From NCBI GenBank assembly GCA_902785855.1, contig CADAAJ010000010.1, positions 1-36,272 on the forward strand: DNA of 36,272 nt, read 5' to 3'. Source of the DNA: an uncultured Methanobrevibacter sp. (GTDB lineage Archaea; Methanobacteriota; Methanobacteria; Methanobacteriales; Methanobacteriaceae). Below are positions 8,538-16,953 of this stretch, piece by piece; the first letter of the stretch is position 1, and the number at the start of each line of letters is the position of its first letter. Below the pieces are notes generated by a model. That model had not been told where the DNA came from, searched no databases, and saw only the letters and a list, made by a program, of their open reading frames with translations. A program made the position numbers and the translations under genes.

Positions 8538-8648
8538 AAAACACCACCAAATCCAACAAATTTTATAATAATAAACATTGAAATATTAATTATAACAAGT
8601 GAAAATTAAAAAATTATTCATCACTTTAATTAAACAAGGATGGTTTTT

Positions 8649-10328
8649 ATGAGTAATACTTTAGCAAATATTAAATTTAGAGAACTTTTATTGCCCACAA
8701 TTCTTATTGCAATGGCATTAAATATTACTGCTATTGTTGATTCTATATTTGTATCCACATTTATTGGAGATGTTGCATTAGCAGCAATTGAAATTTTAGA
8801 ACCAATAATATTATTAGTAACTGTTTTTGAATGGTTATTTGGACTTGGTGGGCAAATTTTATCATTAAATAGAAAAGCAGAATTTGATGAAGAAGGAAGT
8901 AATCTTTACTTCACTGTTGCAGTACTGACAACAGTCATTGTAAGTGTACTATTTATTATAATCTGTTTTATAGATTTAAATGGTCTAATAACATTTCTAC
9001 ATTCTAAACCAGAAATAACACCATATGTACAACAATATGCACCTTTCTTATTCTTATGTTTCCCAGTATCTGCTGTTTTAGGAGTATTAAGTCAATATAT
9101 TCGTGTTGACGGTCAGCCTAATTTTGCAACAGCAGTTATTATAATTGCAAATGTGGTAAATATTATTTTAAATTATATCTTTTTATCCCATTTTCACATG
9201 GGAATAACAGGTGTATCCCTTGCATCATTTATAGGATACAGCGTGGGATTATTATGTGTTTTAAAATATTACTTTGATTCAAAAAGAACATTTAAATTCA
9301 TCCATTCAATAATTCCAATAAAAAAATTAATAAAATCCGCCGTTGAAATATGTAAAATTGGATTCCCAAGTGCAAGTATGGGACTTTTTGATGTAATTTT
9401 AGTATATTTCATGAATTTCCTCATTGGAGGAATTTTAGGCGCAAATGGTTTAGTTACATACAGTATTTGTGTTGAATCCTTGTTAATTATCAGTATTTTA
9501 ATTATTGGAATTGCAGATACACTAACTTCAATTATTCCAGTTTATTATTCACAAGACGATTATAGGACAGTTAACTCTCTTATTCAACGTTCAGTAATCT
9601 ATGCACTGTTATGTGCAGTAATATTTACAGTATTTATATGGATAACTCCACAAACATATCTGACATTATATAATCTCCAGAATGTTTCATATCTGCCCCT
9701 TATAACTAATGCTTTAAGAATATACTCATTACTCTTCATACCAAGTGTATTTGGAACAATATTGATATTCTATTATGAAGCTATTGAAAGAGCATCCATT
9801 TCAACAGTAATGTCTGTAATTGTATCCCTCGTAGGTCCACTGGCAATAAGTTATTTACTATATCCAATTTTCGGTGTTGACATTATATGGGCATCATTTG
9901 CAATATCCTGTGTTATCGCAATTATAGTTGCAATGATTTATGCTAAAATTATTGAAAGAAATGAACCTGAATATAAAGGAGTTTACTTTATTAAAAAAGG
10001 AATAATTGAAAACTCAAAAACATATAAATTATCAAATATCAATGAAAAATCAGCTGTACTTACACATTTAAGTGATTTAAATGTTGATAAAAGTGAAAGC
10101 GATAAAATAGATTATATAATTAATAAACTCTTTGAAGAAAATGATTCTAAGTTTAATATTGAAGTTTTAATAATCAATTATGATTCAAAAATTAAAGTCA
10201 ATATTAAAGATCAGGGAAAACGAGATATTAATGAAAATATAAAAAATGAAATTCAAGATGAAGAAAACCTAAAACATACTCATCTTTTAGGATTCAATAA
10301 TCTCGAATATACGATTAATAAAAGCTAA
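8649..10328 (+). CDS. MATE-family transporter fused to a C-terminal HATPase/RsbW-like domain
   Basis: A 559-residue protein. Residues 1 to about 440 contain about twelve hydrophobic helices in the MATE/MOP pattern, beginning FRELLLPTILIAMALNITAIVDSIFVS and including DGQPNFATAVIIIANVVNIILNYIF, a typical MATE motif. A cytosolic extension of about 110 residues follows. Its end (THLLGFNNLEYTI, about 545-557) and DQG (521-523) match the final strand and D-x-G box of RsbW-type HATPase domains that I recall fused to bacterial MATE proteins. The expected catalytic Glu and Mg-binding Asn of the N-box are not evident near 484-505 and the G2/lid segment is missing, so ATP binding is doubtful. The ATG at 8649 is preferred to 8640 because AAGGATGG is well placed for it. 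It faces a STAS gene tail-to-tail. Confidence 0.82.
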   Translation: MSNTLANIKFRELLLPTILIAMALNITAIVDSIFVSTFIGDVALAAIEILEPIILLVTVFEWLFGLGGQILSLNRKAEFDEEGSNLYFTVAVLTTVIVSVLFIIICFIDLNGLITFLHSKPEITPYVQQYAPFLFLCFPVSAVLGVLSQYIRVDGQPNFATAVIIIANVVNIILNYIFLSHFHMGITGVSLASFIGYSVGLLCVLKYYFDSKRTFKFIHSIIPIKKLIKSAVEICKIGFPSASMGLFDVILVYFMNFLIGGILGANGLVTYSICVESLLIISILIIGIADTLTSIIPVYYSQDDYRTVNSLIQRSVIYALLCAVIFTVFIWITPQTYLTLYNLQNVSYLPLITNALRIYSLLFIPSVFGTILIFYYEAIERASISTVMSVIVSLVGPLAISYLLYPIFGVDIIWASFAISCVIAIIVAMIYAKIIERNEPEYKGVYFIKKGIIENSKTYKLSNINEKSAVLTHLSDLNVDKSESDKIDYIINKLFEENDSKFNIEVLIINYDSKIKVNIKDQGKRDINENIKNEIQDEENLKHTHLLGFNNLEYTINKS

Positions 10329-10357
10329 AGATTAATTTCTTTAGCTAATTTTTTTTT
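10323..10357 (+). terminator. Strong hairpin terminator between MATE and STAS genes
   Basis: A perfect 8-bp inverted repeat, AGCTAAAG (10323-10330) and CTTTAGCT (10339-10346), with an 8-base loop, is followed by T10349-T10357. It overlaps the stop of the MATE gene, and its T-tract touches the stop of the convergent STAS gene. Confidence 0.7.
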
Positions 10358-10652
10358 ATTGAATATTTAATATTTTATCAAAACCAGCCATTAAAAAGAT
10401 TTCTTTAATAGTATCATTTACATAAATGACACAAGGAATATCATCAGGTTTTAATTTTTTTTGCACAACAATTAAAACTCTTAAACCTGCACTTGAAATA
10501 TACTCCAATTCTTTAAAATCAATGATTAATGAATCAAAATTCCCCATTTCATCCATTATGAAATTTTCAAAATCAGGAGCTGTAACAGTATCAATTCTAT
10601 CTTTAACAGAAATTGTTAATTCTTTTTCTTCATAATTTTTTGTAATATCCAT
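10356..10652 (-). CDS. STAS-domain protein, anti-sigma factor antagonist type
   Basis: A 98-residue single STAS domain of the SpoIIAA/RsbV type, the phosphorylatable partner in partner-switching circuits. The phosphorylation loop reads LEYISSAGLRVLIVVQ; aligned by Gly-Leu with SpoIIAA (DSSGLG), Ser54 is the likely acceptor and the Asp before it is replaced by Ser53. The central GNFDSLIIDFKELEYIS strand is typical. Start ATG at 10652 has TTAGGTGAT upstream. Its probable partners here are the HATPase-like tail of the MATE protein and the two PP2C phosphatases, which lie on the same strand beyond an opposite-strand copper cassette. What it regulates is unknown because archaea lack sigma factors. 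Confidence 0.88.
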   Translation of the reverse strand: MDITKNYEEKELTISVKDRIDTVTAPDFENFIMDEMGNFDSLIIDFKELEYISSAGLRVLIVVQKKLKPDDIPCVIYVNDTIKEIFLMAGFDKILNIQ

Positions 10653-10680
10653 GATATCACCTAATAAAATTTTTATACAA

Positions 10681-10708
10681 ATATATATTGTTAAGTTAGA
10701 TAACTTAA
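10681..10708 (-). promoter_or_regulatory. STAS promoter with adjacent 18-bp palindrome
   Basis: On the minus strand a TATA-like box (complement of ATATATAT, 10681-10688) lies about 30 bases before the STAS ATG. Immediately upstream is a perfect palindrome, TTAAGTTA-GA-TAACTTAA (10691-10708), where TFB would contact the DNA. It is a good candidate for a repressor site on the STAS promoter, or on the divergent csoR promoter. Confidence 0.5.
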
Positions 10709-10730
10709 ATTTTTTGATAATGAGAAATCT

Positions 10731-10740
10731 TTATATATAA
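10731..10740 (+). promoter_or_regulatory. TATA box of the copper cassette (csoR promoter)
   Basis: TTTATATATA sits about 20-25 bases before the centre of the first CsoR-type palindrome, which would therefore cover the start of transcription. This arrangement suits repression by blocking initiation. Confidence 0.5.
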
Positions 10741-10749
10741 AAAAATCAA

Positions 10750-10767
10750 TATACCCTAGTAGGTATA
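10750..10767 (+). promoter_or_regulatory. CsoR-type operator 1
   Basis: Inverted repeat TATACC (10750-10755) and GGTATA (10762-10767) around CTAGTA. It has the 18-base layout and the TACC/GGTA arms of known CsoR operators and matches the second site at 11071. It lies between the TATA box and the csoR start codon. Confidence 0.65.
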
Positions 10768-10779
10768 GGTTGTGTTATT

Positions 10780-11052
10780 TTGAAAAAATGTATGGATAGT
10801 GCAAATTTACATAGAAGAATAAAAAAAATTATCGGCCAATTAAATGCAATTGACCGTATGATTGATGAAGATATTCCTTGCGAACAAATATTAATGCAAG
10901 TTAATGCTTCAAAATCAGCATTACACAAAGTAGGACATATTATAGTTGAAGGGCATTTGGAACATTGTGTTAAAGATGCTATTGATAATGAAGATGCTGA
11001 TGAAGCTTTAGGTGATATTTCATCAATTTTAGAATATTATTCCAGACTTTAA
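10780..11052 (+). CDS. csoR: CsoR-family copper-sensing repressor
   Basis: A 90-residue all-helical CsoR/RcnR (DUF156) repressor. The Cu(I) ligands occur with exact family spacing: C34 (DIPCEQILMQ), H59 and C63 (VEGHLEHCV), equivalent to Cys36-His61-Cys65 in the mycobacterial protein. The basic first helix (LHRRIKKIIGQLNAIDRMI) is the DNA-binding face. Copper binding in this family releases the operator. It starts at TTG (10780), with AGGTTG upstream; the ATG at 10792 would cut into the N-terminus. The gene sits between two near-identical palindromic operators, so it probably represses itself and the downstream ATPase. Confidence 0.9.
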   Translation: MKKCMDSANLHRRIKKIIGQLNAIDRMIDEDIPCEQILMQVNASKSALHKVGHIIVEGHLEHCVKDAIDNEDADEALGDISSILEYYSRL

Positions 11053-11060
11053 TTTTTTTT
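11053..11060 (+). terminator. T-tract after csoR
   Basis: An 8-base T-run immediately follows the csoR stop codon. It may end part of the csoR transcripts, leaving the ATPase to its own operator-controlled promoter. Confidence 0.35.
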
Positions 11061-11070
11061 AAAATAACAT

Positions 11071-11088
11071 TATACCCCATAGGGTATA
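11071..11088 (+). promoter_or_regulatory. CsoR-type operator 2, upstream of the P-type ATPase
   Basis: A perfect inverted repeat TATACCC (11071-11077) and GGGTATA (11082-11088) around CATA. It lies directly before the ribosome binding site AAGGTGAG of the ATPase gene. It has the same length and the same outer arms as the first site, so one regulator probably binds both. Confidence 0.7.
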
Positions 11089-11100
11089 AGGTGAGTTAAA

Positions 11101-12987
11101 ATGAAACATGCAAAAATTAAAATAATTCAAATAATAATCTCAGCAATTTGTGTAATTTTAAGTTTCATATTAAATATTGAGTATATATCCTGGATAGCCA
11201 TAATATTATGTGGAATTCCAATATTTAAAGAATGCATAAACGGTTTAATCAAAGAATTTGATATAAAAGCAGATTTACTTGTTTCAATAGCAATTATATC
11301 ATCAATTATTATTGGAGAAGTATTTGCAGCAGGTGAAATAGCAACAATAATGGCAATTGGAGGATTCTTAGAAGAATACACAGTATCAAAAACTCAAAAT
11401 AGAATTAAAGAACTTGTAGAAATAACTCCACAAATAGCAACAAGAATAACAAATAAAACTGAGGAAAAAATACCTGCAGAGGAGATAAAAACTGGAGATA
11501 TATTAAAAATTCTACCTGGAGAAATTATCCCTACAGACGGAATTATTGTAAATGGAGAAAGTTCAATTGACCAGTCCACATTAACCGGAGAATCAATGCC
11601 AGTTGATAAAAGTGTAAATGATGAAGTATACAGTGGATGTGTAAACCTTTATGGATCTTTTTTAATGAAAACAACAAAATTAAGTAAAGATAGTTCACTA
11701 CAAAAATTAATTAACTTAGTTGAATCATCATCTGCAGATAACAGTAAAATAGTTCGCCAAGCTGACAAATGGGCAACATTAATTGTAGTAATCGCATTTA
11801 CAGCAGCAATATTAACCTATTTAGCAACATTTGAAATAATCAGATCAGTTACAATTTTAGTTGTATTCTGCCCATGTGCATTAGTACTTGCAACACCAAC
11901 TGCAATAATCGCTGCTATTGGAAACCTAACAAAATTTGGAATATTAGTTAAAAACGGAGAATCAATAGAAGAGTTAGCTCATGTAAGTGAAGTAGTATTT
12001 GATAAAACAGGAACCTTAACAAAAGGAAAACCGGAAGTTGTTAAAATAATCTCAGACAACCCTCAAGAAATGATGTATCTTTTAGCATCAATAGAATCAA
12101 AATCAGAACATCCACTAGCAAAAGCAATAGTCAAATATTACAAAAATAATGATTTAGCAGAAGTTAACAATTTTAAAATGCATATAGGAATGGGAGTAAC
12201 AGGTGAAATCAAGGGAGATAAAATAATTGCCGGAAATAAAAAACTCATGAAAAAGGAAAATATCAAAATACACAATGATAAAAGAATTGATGAAAAAATA
12301 GAAATTTTTATAGCTAAAAATCATGAATTGCTTGGAAAAATATACCTGTCAGACACACTGCGCGGAAATGCAAAAAGAACAATAGAAGAATTGAAAAAAT
12401 TAAAGGTTAAAACAACATTACTAACAGGAGATAGTGAAAAACCAACAACAAAAATTGCAAATAAGCTTAAAATAAGAAATGTAAAATTTAACTGTTTGCC
12501 TGAAGACAAAATAGAATATATAAAAAAAGAACAAACCCTAGGACATAAAGTCTCAATGATTGGAGATGGACTTAATGATGCACCTTCCCTAAAAAAATCA
12601 GATGTTGGAATAGCAATGGGTAGTATCGGAAGTGATATATCAATTGAAGCTGCAAAAATTACATTACTTAATGACAATATTGAAGACATACCTCATCTAA
12701 TTAAAATAGCTAAAAAAACAGTACGCACAATAAACATCAGTATAGGATTTGCTTTAATATTAAATATAATAGCTATGAGTTTAGCAATATTAGGCTTTTT
12801 AAATCCAATACAAGGAGCTTTAATCCACAATATCGGCTCTGTTTTTGTAATAATTTATTCTACAACATTAATAAGATACAATATTTCAAAAAAAGAATAC
12901 AAAAAAGAAAATTTAGGTATAACTAAAAGTTTAAATAAAACAATACCCAATATTAAACTAAATACAACAGGTGAAAAATATGACTGA
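11101..12987 (+). CDS. P1B-type heavy-metal (probably copper) transporting ATPase
   Basis: A 628-residue P-type ATPase. Seen in order: N-terminal hydrophobic helices, the actuator motif LTGESMPVDKS, the membrane metal site CPC (257-259, VVFCPCALVLATP), the phosphorylated aspartate D301 in DKTGTLTKGKP, the SEHPLAKAI motif of the nucleotide domain and GDGLNDAPSLK. There is no N-terminal metal-binding domain; a separate CopZ-like protein follows. The last helices read LIHNIGSVFVIIYSTTLIRYN and lack the MxxSS signature of classical Cu(I) pumps, so the specificity is inferred mainly from csoR, operator and copZ context. The last eight bases overlap copZ, implying coupled translation. Confidence 0.9.
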   Translation: MKHAKIKIIQIIISAICVILSFILNIEYISWIAIILCGIPIFKECINGLIKEFDIKADLLVSIAIISSIIIGEVFAAGEIATIMAIGGFLEEYTVSKTQNRIKELVEITPQIATRITNKTEEKIPAEEIKTGDILKILPGEIIPTDGIIVNGESSIDQSTLTGESMPVDKSVNDEVYSGCVNLYGSFLMKTTKLSKDSSLQKLINLVESSSADNSKIVRQADKWATLIVVIAFTAAILTYLATFEIIRSVTILVVFCPCALVLATPTAIIAAIGNLTKFGILVKNGESIEELAHVSEVVFDKTGTLTKGKPEVVKIISDNPQEMMYLLASIESKSEHPLAKAIVKYYKNNDLAEVNNFKMHIGMGVTGEIKGDKIIAGNKKLMKKENIKIHNDKRIDEKIEIFIAKNHELLGKIYLSDTLRGNAKRTIEELKKLKVKTTLLTGDSEKPTTKIANKLKIRNVKFNCLPEDKIEYIKKEQTLGHKVSMIGDGLNDAPSLKKSDVGIAMGSIGSDISIEAAKITLLNDNIEDIPHLIKIAKKTVRTINISIGFALILNIIAMSLAILGFLNPIQGALIHNIGSVFVIIYSTTLIRYNISKKEYKKENLGITKSLNKTIPNIKLNTTGEKYD

Positions 12988-13183
12988 AAAAGAAATAAAA
13001 GTTGTTGGAATGCATTGTAACTCATGTGTAAATGCTGTTGAACTTTCTTTAAAAGATATAGATGGAATTGATGAAGCAAAAGCAGACTTAGATACTGGAA
13101 TTACTAAAATTACTATGTCAAGTGATGTTAGTGATGCAGATATTAAAGAAGCTGTTGAAGAAGCAGGATTTAACATTGCTTAA
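12980..13183 (+). CDS. copZ: CopZ-like heavy-metal-associated (HMA) metallochaperone
   Basis: A 67-residue ferredoxin-like HMA domain that carries Cu(I) to the membrane pump. The metal loop is GMHCNSCVNAVE, with Cys13 and Cys16 in the usual MxCxxC motif. The rest alternates as expected for the beta-alpha-beta fold (VVGMHC, LSLKDIDGIDEAKADLD, ITKITM, DIKEAVEEAGFNI). I chose ATG 12980 because AGGTGA precedes it; the GTG at 12971 would include that site. It overlaps the end of the ATPase gene, completing a csoR-ATPase-copZ cassette. Confidence 0.92.
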   Translation: MTEKEIKVVGMHCNSCVNAVELSLKDIDGIDEAKADLDTGITKITMSSDVSDADIKEAVEEAGFNIA

Positions 13184-13193
13184 ATCCCAATTC

Positions 13194-15029
13194 TTACAAA
13201 TATCTTAAACAGAGCATTGTAATATCATCAAATTGTTCATGATTATTACAATACCCATCAATATCCTTTTTAATAGAAGAAATAATTAAACTTAAATCAT
13301 CCCCACTATGATTATTTAAAATATTATTTAATCTGTCCTCACCATAAAAACCATTATAATCATCATTAGCTTCAGTAACACCATCAGTATATAAAAATAT
13401 ACAATCCTCATGATTTAATTGTATAGTTTGAGATGTATATGGCATATCTTCCATAGCAGCCAATACTAAATTGGAATCTGTTTTAAAGTATTGGAAATCA
13501 TGACTCTCATGTTTAATTAATGGGAAATTATGTCCCGCATTAACATAGGTTAATTCACCTGTTTTTAAATTTAATTTTCCAAGCCAACAAGTAACAAAAA
13601 GTTCTTCAACATTACCCCGACATAGCAAATTATTTACCTGTTCAAAAGTCCAGGAAACATCCCCACTATATTTAAGATGGTCTTTAATAAGTGTTAATGC
13701 TTTAACCATTATTAATGAAGCTATAATTCCTTTACCACTAACATCCCCAATAACAAAACCTATATTATCCTCGTCAATGTTAAAGTAATCATAAAAGTCT
13801 CCGCCAACTTCCCTTGCAGCTTTCATCAAACCCCAAATTTCAAAATTCCTACCGTTGCAAAATTCTTCAAAGTCTGTTGAAATCATGGAAGATTGAATTT
13901 TATCTGCCAACTCCAATTCTGTTTCATATTTTTCTTTCTCAGCAGTGACTTTAATAATATCATTTTTATATTGAATAACATCTTCTTCCATTTTAATTAA
14001 AGAATCAGTTAATTCTTTAACTTCATCATTAGCCAAATTACTTGAAATATTTTTTAAATGGATCATGTTTAAATCAGATACATCACTGGATAGTGAAGAA
14101 GAAATCTTATTAATTGGATTTACTACATTTTTTTCCAAAAAGTAAATATAAATCAAAAGTGGAATAAAAAATCCGAATGAAAATATAATTAAACTATCAT
14201 CAAATATCAACAATGCAGAATACAAATCCAAATGTCCTGATGAACTAAAATAAATTCTAAAGTATACCAATAATCCAAAAACAATTTCCAATAATAAAAA
14301 TATGATAAATACTGAAAAAGATACCTTATTAATTAAATTAAAATAAATAGCATCTTTAATTTTAAAAACTTCTCTATCATAAGGTTTAAAAATATAAACA
14401 ACTTGCAATAGTATAATTAAAAATAAAAACTCAACCGGTATAATATCAGATACAATTAAAAATCCAACCAAATATGATAAAATCAATGCAAAATCATATA
14501 GTTTTAAAGGCATGATTTGCCTAAATTGTTTTTTTGGTGAATAGAGTGGAATATTAAAGTAATTAACAGCGTAAACCATGAAAAACACGAGAGAAAAATA
14601 AGACAGTGAAAATAAAACTTCATTAAATTTAAGTATATCAAATTCTAAAGATAATATTAAACTATATAATATAATCGGAAGACAGGATATGGTTAATTTA
14701 ATAAATCCCATATAACTACCTAAATTAGGAATTTCATAACCTGATTTTTTATTAAAAAGACAATACCACAATTTCCATGAAACCACACATGAAACCAACA
14801 TGAATGTATACATAATTAATTCAAGTACATCTGCACTAACGCCACCACATGCTACAAGTGCCAATAAACAACCAACAGCAGCAAAAGGTCCAAATAATAT
14901 ACTTAATACCAATGAAAATCCTAAACCCTGAATAGTTCCAAATGCATTGAATGCAATAAAATTCACTATAGCTGAAAAAATCAAAAGAAATAATTTTGAT
15001 TTAAAAAGTTTACGAACATTATACATCAT
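13194..15029 (-). CDS. Membrane-anchored SpoIIE/RsbU-type PP2C serine phosphatase (paralogue 1)
   Basis: A 611-residue protein. The first ~295 residues hold eight to ten hydrophobic segments, including GLGFSLVLSILFGPFAAVGC near the start. A HAMP-like stretch (VVNPINKISSSL) and a coiled coil follow. The last ~235 residues are a PP2C/SpoIIE domain with all metal-binding motifs: EVGGDFYDY (about 407), GDVSGKG (about 428), NAGHN, YTDGVTEA (about 547) and FDDITM (about 600). Such enzymes dephosphorylate STAS proteins, so the STAS protein at 10356 is the natural substrate. Start ATG 15029 overlaps the end of the upstream paralogue, with GGGGGTG before it. A 56-base stretch is identical to its paralogue. 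Confidence 0.92.
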   Translation of the reverse strand: MMYNVRKLFKSKLFLLIFSAIVNFIAFNAFGTIQGLGFSLVLSILFGPFAAVGCLLALVACGGVSADVLELIMYTFMLVSCVVSWKLWYCLFNKKSGYEIPNLGSYMGFIKLTISCLPIILYSLILSLEFDILKFNEVLFSLSYFSLVFFMVYAVNYFNIPLYSPKKQFRQIMPLKLYDFALILSYLVGFLIVSDIIPVEFLFLIILLQVVYIFKPYDREVFKIKDAIYFNLINKVSFSVFIIFLLLEIVFGLLVYFRIYFSSSGHLDLYSALLIFDDSLIIFSFGFFIPLLIYIYFLEKNVVNPINKISSSLSSDVSDLNMIHLKNISSNLANDEVKELTDSLIKMEEDVIQYKNDIIKVTAEKEKYETELELADKIQSSMISTDFEEFCNGRNFEIWGLMKAAREVGGDFYDYFNIDEDNIGFVIGDVSGKGIIASLIMVKALTLIKDHLKYSGDVSWTFEQVNNLLCRGNVEELFVTCWLGKLNLKTGELTYVNAGHNFPLIKHESHDFQYFKTDSNLVLAAMEDMPYTSQTIQLNHEDCIFLYTDGVTEANDDYNGFYGEDRLNNILNNHSGDDLSLIISSIKKDIDGYCNNHEQFDDITMLCLRYL

Positions 15030-16953
15030 CCAACACCCCCTCATATTTAAAAATAAACATTGTTAAATCATCAAATTGTTCAACACCATTACAAAATTGA
15101 TTAATATCATTTTTAATTTCATCAATGATTTTATCTACATCTTCATATTTATTTTTGTTCAATTTATTAATCAATCTTTCTTCACCATAAAAACCATTAT
15201 AATCATCATTAGCTTCAGTAACACCATCAGTATATAAGAAAATAATATCTCCAGGATTTAATTTAATTTTAACTTCTTTAAATTTAAAATCATCCATAAT
15301 TCCTAATGGAATATTATTATCATCTTGTAAATATTCAAAATCACCACCATTTCTCATAATTAATGGAGGATTATGTCCTGCATTAACAAATGAAAGATCA
15401 CCAGTTTTATAATTAAATTTGGAAAACCATGAAGTAACAAATAAATTATTATTATTTTTTTCACAGGCCAAATCATTAACCTGGTTGATTACATCACTTG
15501 ATGAAACTTCGAATCTGGAATGATTTTTGATTAAAAACATGATTTTAACCATAAACAATGCAGCAGAAATTCCCTTCCCACTGACATCACCAATAACAAA
15601 TGCAATATTTTCATCATCAACATCAATGTAATCATAAAAATCCCCGCCAACTTCTTTTGCAGGATTCATGGACCCATAAATTTTAAATGACTTATTTTCA
15701 GCAAATTCCTCAAAATTATCTGATAACATGTTTGTCTGAATTTTTCTTGCAACATTAAATTCTGTTTCAAGTCTTTCTTTATCTGCAGTGGTTTTTTTAA
15801 GTTCTTTAAGATTATCTTTAATAATAGTTCCAAGTTTATTGAATGAATCAATGAGAATTATAATATCATCATCATTTTTCATCAAACCCCTAAAATTAAA
15901 AGTAACTTTATTCTGATTAGATAATTTTCCATCAACAATATAATTTTTTACAGCCCGATTTAATTTATTTAAAGGATTTGTAATGATACGTTCCACAAAA
16001 TAAATATGAATAATAGTAAACACTACCGCAACAGCCAATACTACTCCCAAAGAAATCATGAAAATAAAACTTTTATCCAATACATGTAAATTATATTTAA
16101 AATAATTCATAACAAGAATTGAATCATCCAATAACTGATAAGAAGATATTAACATTACTAACAGAAACCCAACAATAATCTTTTCAATAATGGAATAATT
16201 ATCATCCATTTCAACAAGTTTGACATCAAATGAGTTAATGGCAAATAAGAATATTGTAATAAATGATAATGCAAACATAATATAATTTGCAACAGGAATA
16301 TTAATTCTTAATAAAATATATGCAACAACAATCACAAATGGAATAAAAAATAATCTATAAGGTATTTTTAATTTAGATTTAAAACCTTTAGGTTTTTTTA
16401 AAGGAATTTTAGCAAAATTAAACATAGTAATGAAAATAAAAGAATATAATATTGCAAAGTCAAAAATATCAAATGCATATGAAAATTGATTTCTGAAATT
16501 AGATATACTATATAAATCAGACATTACTTCAGGAAAAGCTAAAAAAGAAATTCTTAACAAAATTAAATAAACTCCAGAAGTTATAGCCATTATAATAAGT
16601 AATTTTAAAATATTATATGTTGAATTAAATCTTGGAGTAGTTAAATCTTTTTCTTTAAAGAATAAATACCATAATTTATAAGGCAATATTGAAATGAAAA
16701 ATAATATTATGGAATCAATTAGACAAACCGGCAAAATACATCCCGCTTTTAATTCAGAGACAAAAGTGGCCAAAGCATAACCTAATCCCCCAACTGGACC
16801 AAATACTAGACCAAAAAAAGGAGATAAAGCCATGTCTGGATTTAAATATCTTCCACCAATATTTAAATGATTAAACAAATAAAACATGATAAATTCTATA
16901 GAAAATGTAAGAATAAAAATGAATATATTATTTTTAAAAAGTCTTTTAATCAT
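15019..16953 (-). CDS. Membrane-anchored SpoIIE/RsbU-type PP2C serine phosphatase (paralogue 2)
   Basis: A 644-residue paralogue of the downstream gene with the same order: multi-helix membrane domain (to about residue 315, with FFGLVFGPVGGLGYALATFVSE early on), HAMP-like ITNPLNKLNRAVKN, a coiled coil, then PP2C. Catalytic motifs are intact: EVGGDFYDY (about 434), GDVSGKG (about 455), NAGHNPP, YTDGVTEA (about 574) and FDDLTM (about 627). The membrane domains of the two proteins are much less alike than the catalytic domains, suggesting different input signals to one output. It is the first gene of the pair; the ribosome binding site (TTAGGCAAAACTC) is weak. Confidence 0.92.
   Translation of the reverse strand: MIKRLFKNNIFIFILTFSIEFIMFYLFNHLNIGGRYLNPDMALSPFFGLVFGPVGGLGYALATFVSELKAGCILPVCLIDSIILFFISILPYKLWYLFFKEKDLTTPRFNSTYNILKLLIIMAITSGVYLILLRISFLAFPEVMSDLYSISNFRNQFSYAFDIFDFAILYSFIFITMFNFAKIPLKKPKGFKSKLKIPYRLFFIPFVIVVAYILLRINIPVANYIMFALSFITIFLFAINSFDVKLVEMDDNYSIIEKIIVGFLLVMLISSYQLLDDSILVMNYFKYNLHVLDKSFIFMISLGVVLAVAVVFTIIHIYFVERIITNPLNKLNRAVKNYIVDGKLSNQNKVTFNFRGLMKNDDDIIILIDSFNKLGTIIKDNLKELKKTTADKERLETEFNVARKIQTNMLSDNFEEFAENKSFKIYGSMNPAKEVGGDFYDYIDVDDENIAFVIGDVSGKGISAALFMVKIMFLIKNHSRFEVSSSDVINQVNDLACEKNNNNLFVTSWFSKFNYKTGDLSFVNAGHNPPLIMRNGGDFEYLQDDNNIPLGIMDDFKFKEVKIKLNPGDIIFLYTDGVTEANDDYNGFYGEERLINKLNKNKYEDVDKIIDEIKNDINQFCNGVEQFDDLTMFIFKYEGVLDDV

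Follow-up and report, generated by a model that had tools for sequence, protein, structure and literature searches.

The DNA analysed here (the window) is a stretch of 36,272 nucleotides from the genome of an uncultured Methanobrevibacter sp. Within 8.3 kb it encodes a MATE exporter with a C-terminal RsbW-like tail, a STAS family antagonist and two membrane-bound SpoIIE family phosphatases, and an intact stand-alone RsbW is encoded on another contig of the same genome. On a balance judged close to even, these genes would belong to a single genome-wide partner switch which serves the synthesis and export of small peptides, with the exporter tail as its likely docking point. At the level of sequence, the presence of a complete predicted switch, of a putative pseudokinase tail under selection and of linkage between exporter and synthetase genes can be regarded as established.

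The MATE exporter and its RsbW-like tail

Window genes were taken as intact open reading frames (ORFs) on an ORF map, with family assignment by Pfam, and all four genes which a first-pass annotation had listed within the 8.3 kb proved to be intact and supported by Pfam. The exporter gene (8640..10328, + strand; 562 aa; Pfam MatE, E = 1.1e-24) had been given a start at position 8649, which is a Met codon, but the fourth of an ORF that begins at 8640. The AlphaFold2 model of the full protein (predicted local distance difference test, pLDDT, 90.4) has MATE transporters as its best Foldseek matches, with query template modelling (TM) scores of 0.63 to 0.68 over the first twelve MATE rows.

The tail (10014..10319, + strand; approximately residues 459–560) is detected only through its relatives, with Pfam HATPase_c_2 giving no match to the window MATE at E ≤ 1, nor in the genome search with that family. 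Comparison of 23 MATE tails with 15 RsbW proteins using hhalign gave a probability of 98 % (E = 2.3e-13, 115 columns), and the tail alone is modelled by AlphaFold2 (pLDDT 92.1) as a Bergerat-type fold of the order β-α-α-β-β-(lid deleted)-α-β-β. When this model was compared with the PDB using VIA-align, the first ten rows were occupied by UsfX, another SigF anti-sigma factor, RsbW, Rv1364c and SpoIIAB (Z 10.2–12.2), followed by a SiaB-SiaC entry (Z 9.1) and 9qih (Z 8.6), with histidine kinase domains and designed proteins ranking lower (Z 7.2 or less). A PDB profile search straight from the tails gave weak matches only (SpoIIAB, E = 0.012; the VraS sensor, E = 0.0011). By profile and predicted fold the tail is a homologue and a descendant of RsbW, as the first-pass annotation had recognised.

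Judged by its motifs, the tail is not a kinase. The motif sites were read off one MAFFT alignment of 97 tails, comprising 64 long-lid (57 distinct) and 33 short-lid (32 distinct) sequences, with two members grouped as short-lid (L179 and L192) deviating in having lids of 6 and 12 residues. The acidic catalytic site is retained in all long-lid tails (64/64; Glu in 57, Asp in seven) and the Asn in 54/64, and the first two glycines of the GGLG motif (G95 and G96) are found in none (0/64). Among the short-lid tails, Glu occurs in 3/33 and Asn in 1/33, with lids of 5, 6 or 12 residues as opposed to 27. The window tail belongs to this class; Tyr and Lys replace the catalytic Glu and Asn, the lid has 5 rather than 27 residues and GGLG is missing. 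The position of the catalytic Glu, held by Tyr in the window, is taken by Lys in 21/33 short-lid tails, and it may be speculated that a basic residue here could favour phospho-STAS.

Despite this loss of motifs, median ratios of non-synonymous to synonymous substitution rates (dN/dS) for the tail are 0.105 (short-lid) and 0.102 (long-lid), compared to 0.189 and 0.099 for the MATE core, the medians being drawn from the defined values among 108 and 106 non-independent pairs in which tail dS was often saturated or undefined. A tail ratio of about 0.1 in spite of motif loss argues that the tail is a maintained pseudokinase under purifying selection.

Switch genes of the host genome

The host genome assembly (2.155 Mb, 95 % complete) was searched for the same families. 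A single protein was recovered with HATPase_c_2, a stand-alone RsbW of 127 aa on contig C3 (30045-30428, - strand) which keeps the kinase motifs, and HATPase_c gave no match in the genome except topoisomerase VI B. Across 46 stand-alone RsbW proteins (43 distinct), the catalytic Glu, Asn and Asp and the box glycines are kept in 46/46. The earlier premise that the sole kinase-like partner is attached to the transporter is therefore contradicted. The RsbW gene on C3 is followed after 3 nt by a gene for a 4'-phosphopantetheinyl transferase (PPTase); PPTases prime non-ribosomal peptide synthetases (NRPSs).

Using a cut-off of E ≤ 0.001, the genome has two SpoIIE matches in all, both in the window, while its STAS matches are the window STAS and one SulP-like protein. 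Both SpoIIE genes and the sole stand-alone STAS gene of the genome lie within 6.6 kb, and this clustering exceeds chance. The STAS (SpoIIAA/RsbV-like) protein (10356..10652, - strand; 98 aa; Pfam STAS, E = 2.9e-10) has the candidate acceptor S54 that had been pointed out previously, and across 62 STAS proteins (56 distinct) this serine is conserved in 61/62, with S53 conserved in 62/62. The SpoIIE/RsbU-type phosphatase 1 (15019..16953, - strand; Pfam SpoIIE, E = 1.3e-50; catalytic domain residues 446-637) and phosphatase 2 (13194..15044, - strand; E = 2.8e-45; residues 425-615) are encoded by genes that overlap by 26 nt. A motif scan identified GGDFYD, GDVSGKG, TDGVTE and DDIT or DDLT in both copies, in agreement with the complete catalytic motifs first described. 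The N-terminal membrane part of both phosphatases received no family name from Pfam or NCBIfam.

The gene set of a partner switch, suspected from the window, is thus present across two contigs, with a PP2C phosphatase with metal-binding motifs and a single-domain STAS in the window and, on the other contig, an RsbW with N, G1 and G2 boxes. A sigma factor output is lacking, as had been anticipated; the search for sigma-70 region 2 (Sigma70_r2) found no protein in the host genome, with the control matched in 10/14 genomes. Given the single set of RsbW, STAS and SpoIIE in the genome, we infer that these lone copies are the natural partners of one another.

Linkage to peptide biosynthesis and to switch genes in relatives

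Loci of relatives (L-numbers) and their genomes (G-numbers) were collected in two sets. The first, of 60 loci (L065-L124), was picked around SpoIIE/HATPase matches, so that linkage within it is ascertained. The second, of 77 loci from one genome per species, was found by the MATE core alone, using two short peptide patterns and keeping 80 of 84 matches, the titles of which were all Methanobrevibacter, Methanosphaera, Methanobacteriaceae or 'archaeon'. The two sets overlap (e.g. L073=L127, L100=L168, L114=L166 and L094=L200).

The gene directly upstream of 78 genes for MATE proteins with a tail (tail-MATEs) encodes an NRPS in 57 cases, an ATP-grasp ligase in eleven, another tail-MATE in one and other proteins in two. 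For the remaining 7/78, no ORF of 150 aa was within reach upstream, and three of these genes (L139, L144 and L182) lie ≤400 bp from a contig end; the NRPS count becomes 58/78 when shorter ORFs are allowed. One example, an NRPS of 2609 aa, ends in a reductase according to Pfam and has three condensation, two adenylation and two carrier stretches. The paralogue of the MATE in the window genome is itself encoded 8 nt behind an NRPS of 4185 aa. From these neighbourhoods the MATE family appears mostly to supply NRPS and ATP-grasp operons with their exporter, a context missed by the first-pass annotation. The eleven ATP-grasp ligase genes are situated 8-146 bp upstream of the tail-MATEs (L176, L178, L185-L191, L194 and L197), and a tandem pair of tail-MATEs is found behind NRPS genes in L138:6354-9767.

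In the window, the STAS gene is convergent with the MATE gene, with 27 bp between them. The order NRPS, MATE and convergent STAS occurs in six loci (L126, L127, L132, L136, L173 and L123), and a MATE-STAS arrangement without an NRPS in L125; the window looks like the former layout minus the NRPS. Other biosynthetic enzymes are fused to switch domains. A protein of 711 aa which ends in an RsbW domain adjoins a tail-MATE, STAS and tandem SpoIIE genes in L072, L074, L075 and L077, and the only one of the four that was scanned with Pfam (L074:7737-9872) combines a GH3 acyl-amido synthetase with HATPase_c_2. A further GH3 synthetase (L257:5147-7177) has an N-terminal STAS domain and is encoded directly before a tail-MATE. 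By their predicted domains, such GH3 fusions place the switch on the biosynthetic enzyme itself.

A clustering of stand-alone RsbW with STAS in relatives had been named beforehand as evidence that would speak against an output through the transporter, and it does occur; RsbW and STAS genes overlap by 4 nt in 11/60 of the SpoIIE/HATPase-anchored loci and 14/77 of the MATE-core loci (at least two being common to both sets), and a SpoIIE gene is often adjacent to the overlapping pair. The nearest relative of the window STAS among the anchored loci is the RsbW-overlapping STAS of L069 (E = 6e-45). The other refuting observation that had been foreseen, an absence of conserved linkage between the MATE fusion and switch genes, can be rejected, with MATE tail, STAS, RsbW and SpoIIE sharing a locus in nine distinct cases (L085, L086, L087, L089, L090, L094=L200, L095, L102 and L171). 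A PPTase gene lies within 3 kb of switch genes in twelve loci, and the tandem SpoIIE pair is also found in other genomes of the genus. In L104:7574-9934 and L117:9349-11559, a single protein combines a SpoIIE phosphatase with an RsbW-like domain, and its gene has STAS and additional SpoIIE genes as neighbours; the Pfam scan of this fusion was made on L104.

Distribution across genomes

The first-pass annotation had suggested that genomes of Methanobacteriales be searched for co-occurrence of the genes, and this bears out the association. In a sample of 138 genomes of the family, 77 carry tail-MATEs. SpoIIE accompanies them in 71 of the 77 (Fisher p = 2e-18) and an NRPS in 72 (Fisher p = 2e-25), with phylogeny ignored in both tests. 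The 77 consist of 71 genomes above a hand cut at approximately E 1e-20, out of 85 that matched, and six below it with MATE-length tail proteins (G007, G008, G025, G032, G079 and G119). As for the rest of the fourteen below the cut, the match in G137 is an RsbW and the other seven were not counted. In a search of the phylum (151 genomes), five of the 13 genomes outside the family gave matches, none of them stronger than E 2e-8. The divergent tail-MATEs of L246-L250, L255 and L256 are not directly behind an NRPS, and several of them are in genomes without a SpoIIE or HATPase_c_2 match.

Proposed mechanism and alternative explanations

In the proposed mechanism, the two SpoIIE membrane phosphatases would sense a signal and dephosphorylate STAS at S54, and the stand-alone RsbW would phosphorylate it. 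The tail would dock STAS and so read its state, or would pair with RsbW, and this docking may serve to gate the exporter of NRPS-type products or to position it, with a peptide as the presumed cargo. The MATE exporter would then be an output that needs no sigma factor, and the window an outlying part of a single genome-wide switch. A tail which descends from RsbW and by its motifs would have lost ATP binding, yet is kept by selection, is most likely to be a docking site. It is possible, although this is held with more doubt than conviction, that the output is direct and non-transcriptional, with the phosphorylation state of STAS gating the peptide exporter through the tail and, where GH3 fusions occur, synthesis and secretion being controlled together at the protein level. 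Direct control of transport, as first put forward, thus stays plausible from the recurring linkage and loses its premise of a sole kinase.

The contact of the tail with its partner would differ between the two classes. In the RsbV-RsbW complex, Glu49 of RsbW contacts Ser56 of RsbV, according to the structural description in PMC7340262. The long-lid tails, with Glu kept and the G2 box lost, are as expected for a predicted STAS binder that does not phosphorylate.

Several observations count against the proposed mechanism. The short-lid tails have lost (30/33) the Glu which in RsbW touches the STAS serine, and on sequence grounds this weakens the case for a simple RsbV-style binding by window-type tails; with Glu replaced, the contact must differ or go via the RsbW dimer face. 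The window MATE has no adjoining NRPS and does not lie directly behind one. Within approximately 9.5 kb of the 78 tail-MATEs, STAS is found for 26, RsbW for 15 and SpoIIE for 4, many of the loci behind these counts ending at contig ends. Divergent tail-MATEs, with no SpoIIE or HATPase_c_2 match in the genome, are found in at least three genomes (G007, G008 and G032; 98, 96 and 87 % complete), and in the stretches read no NRPS lies directly upstream of these tail-MATEs. Tail-MATEs without SpoIIE also occur in G025, G026 and G093, with the MATE of G093 split into short frames, and five tail-MATE genomes have no NRPS. In the M. ruminantium-like genome G019, the MATE after the first NRPS (L221:13818-15278) ends at 486 aa and its tail is in a separate 109-aa frame, an apparent frame change. 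As tail-MATEs exist without SpoIIE or HATPase_c_2, the tail would either outlive the switch or serve a second use.

The main rival, which is considered unlikely, is that the switch acts on the expression of NRPS and exporter genes via a transcriptional target of RsbW, with another role for the tail. Such an output was proposed in outline in the account of the Methanobrevibacter ruminantium M1 genome (Leahy et al. 2010, PMC2812497), and the mRNAs of NRPS, MatE and PPTase shift together under lauric acid, an effect at the level of transcription, the expression table giving positive values of 1.06-1.64 for mru_0514 (PPTase), mru_0069 and mru_0352 (MatE) and mru_0351 (NRPS) (PMC5816558). These joint values are counted in favour of the proposed mechanism as well. 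The transcriptional rival would also suit those genomes that carry tails without a switch. However, the host genome has no sigma-70 region 2 protein, no DNA-binding family recurs within 3 kb of switch genes in at least six loci, and RsbW-derived domains on the exporter and on GH3 would be left unexplained. The recurring neighbours include PPTase, ATP-grasp, DUF2207, SpoIIE pieces, an alpha/beta hydrolase, an acyltransferase and DUF4013. They were assessed as nine families with one example each, Pfam being run on five examples plus ATP-grasp and two examples (L104:5383-6333 and L117:2742-4625) being judged by eye; a transcription factor was looked for among these recurring neighbours, and none of the listed families was DNA-binding. 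Less probable again is that the tail is a scaffold, which pairs with RsbW through its dimer face or with another tail and joins kinase, synthetase and exporter without gating. The dimer face of RsbW consists of helix 1 and strand 1, as described for the structure in PMC7340262, and both are present in the tail model. The loss of the STAS-facing Glu in short-lid tails, the occurrence of RsbW or STAS domains on GH3 and SpoIIE proteins as well, and the fit of tail-tail pairing with genomes that have no switch all favour a scaffold.

The stepwise degeneration of motifs among the subfamilies, the broken tail of the M. ruminantium-like genome and the broken MATE of G093 would be consistent with a decaying relic without function. 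This is held to be very improbable and was rejected on the dN/dS of about 0.1, with the 97 alignable tails and the confidently predicted fold also opposing it. The model of the first-pass annotation, in which the tail itself is the switch kinase and the transporter is regulated by STAS phosphorylation, draws on the homology to RsbW and is now scarcely credible; the G2 box is gone in all 64 long-lid tails, the window tail has lost Glu/Asn and the lid, and an intact RsbW is encoded elsewhere in the genome. An active kinase was accordingly rejected on motif loss.

Comparison with known systems

The Bacillus SpoIIE-SpoIIAA-SpoIIAB and RsbU-RsbV-RsbW switches share with the genes described here a PP2C phosphatase, a STAS protein with an acceptor Ser and an RsbW-fold kinase with its motifs, but differ in that the present host lacks sigma-70 region 2 proteins and has a motif-less RsbW-like domain on a transporter. 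The SiaABCD system of Pseudomonas aeruginosa, in the aspects considered here, likewise switches by phosphorylation and acts on an enzyme to which SiaC binds, in place of a sigma factor; SiaB is presumably the kinase and SiaC the antagonist. Both window phosphatases have a weak, below-cut-off NCBIfam match to SiaA. The SiaABCD output is, however, a diguanylate cyclase and not a transporter, and we know of no kinase-derived domain on this target. ClbM is the MATE transporter of the peptide/polyketide (colibactin) cluster, and its structure (4z3n) matches the MATE model; to our knowledge it has no kinase-like tail.

A close precedent is the gene set of M. ruminantium M1, where the genome paper describes clusters mru0066-0071, mru0351-0352 and mru0513-0516 (Leahy et al. 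2010, PMC2812497). In this account an NRPS has around it a MatE gene, an anti-sigma antagonist and two serine phosphatases, a second cluster holds PPTase, phosphatase, antagonist and anti-sigma kinase, and environment sensing, control of NRPS expression and export are proposed (PMC2812497). The phosphatases, antagonist, MatE, NRPS, PPTase and kinase listed in that account are the set found here, with the difference that the window locus is without an NRPS and the kinase lies apart. An RsbW-like tail on MatE is not named in the main text of PMC2812497, from which the terms HATPase, ATP-binding and RsbW are absent. G019 shares the M1 gene order, with STAS, PPTase, SpoIIE and RsbW in one run, and its second MATE has a tail.

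In Methanomicrobiales, SpoIIAA/SpoIIAB/SpoIIE-like sets without sigma factors have been described, in a genome paper whose discussion of these proteins also states that bona fide sigma factors are absent from archaea and that genome sequence does not allow the targets of their 'anti-sigma' proteins to be determined (Anderson et al. 2009, PMC2686161). The sets were reported in that discussion as absent outside the order (PMC2686161), whereas here one occurs in Methanobacteriaceae, beside a candidate target. Judged from titles and abstract openings, literature searches gave no report of an RsbW-like MATE tail, and no paper on a MATE fusion in a search for MATE/HATPase fusions with partner switching. 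A search for dipeptide aldehydes with Methanobrevibacter gave no paper. Parts of the cluster are thus already known, and no mention of the pseudokinase tail as a putative connection of switch and exporter occurred in the titles and abstract openings searched. The analysis names a candidate target for an archaeal switch, namely the kinase-derived tail of NRPS-linked exporters, together with GH3 proteins fused to switch domains. If this is correct, partner switching would reach direct control of a transporter and would be tied to peptide secretion by methanogens of the animal gut.

Neighbouring genes in the window

Upstream (5') of the window MATE gene are the genes for topoisomerase VI B and A. 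The interval between the STAS and SpoIIE genes (10780-12987) encodes, according to Pfam, a repressor of the CsoR type and a P-type ATPase for metals, and these two are probably unrelated to the switch. Neither they nor the topoisomerase genes had been named by the first-pass annotation. A gap of like size occurs at the same place in L068 (2584 bp, compared to 2541 bp in the window).

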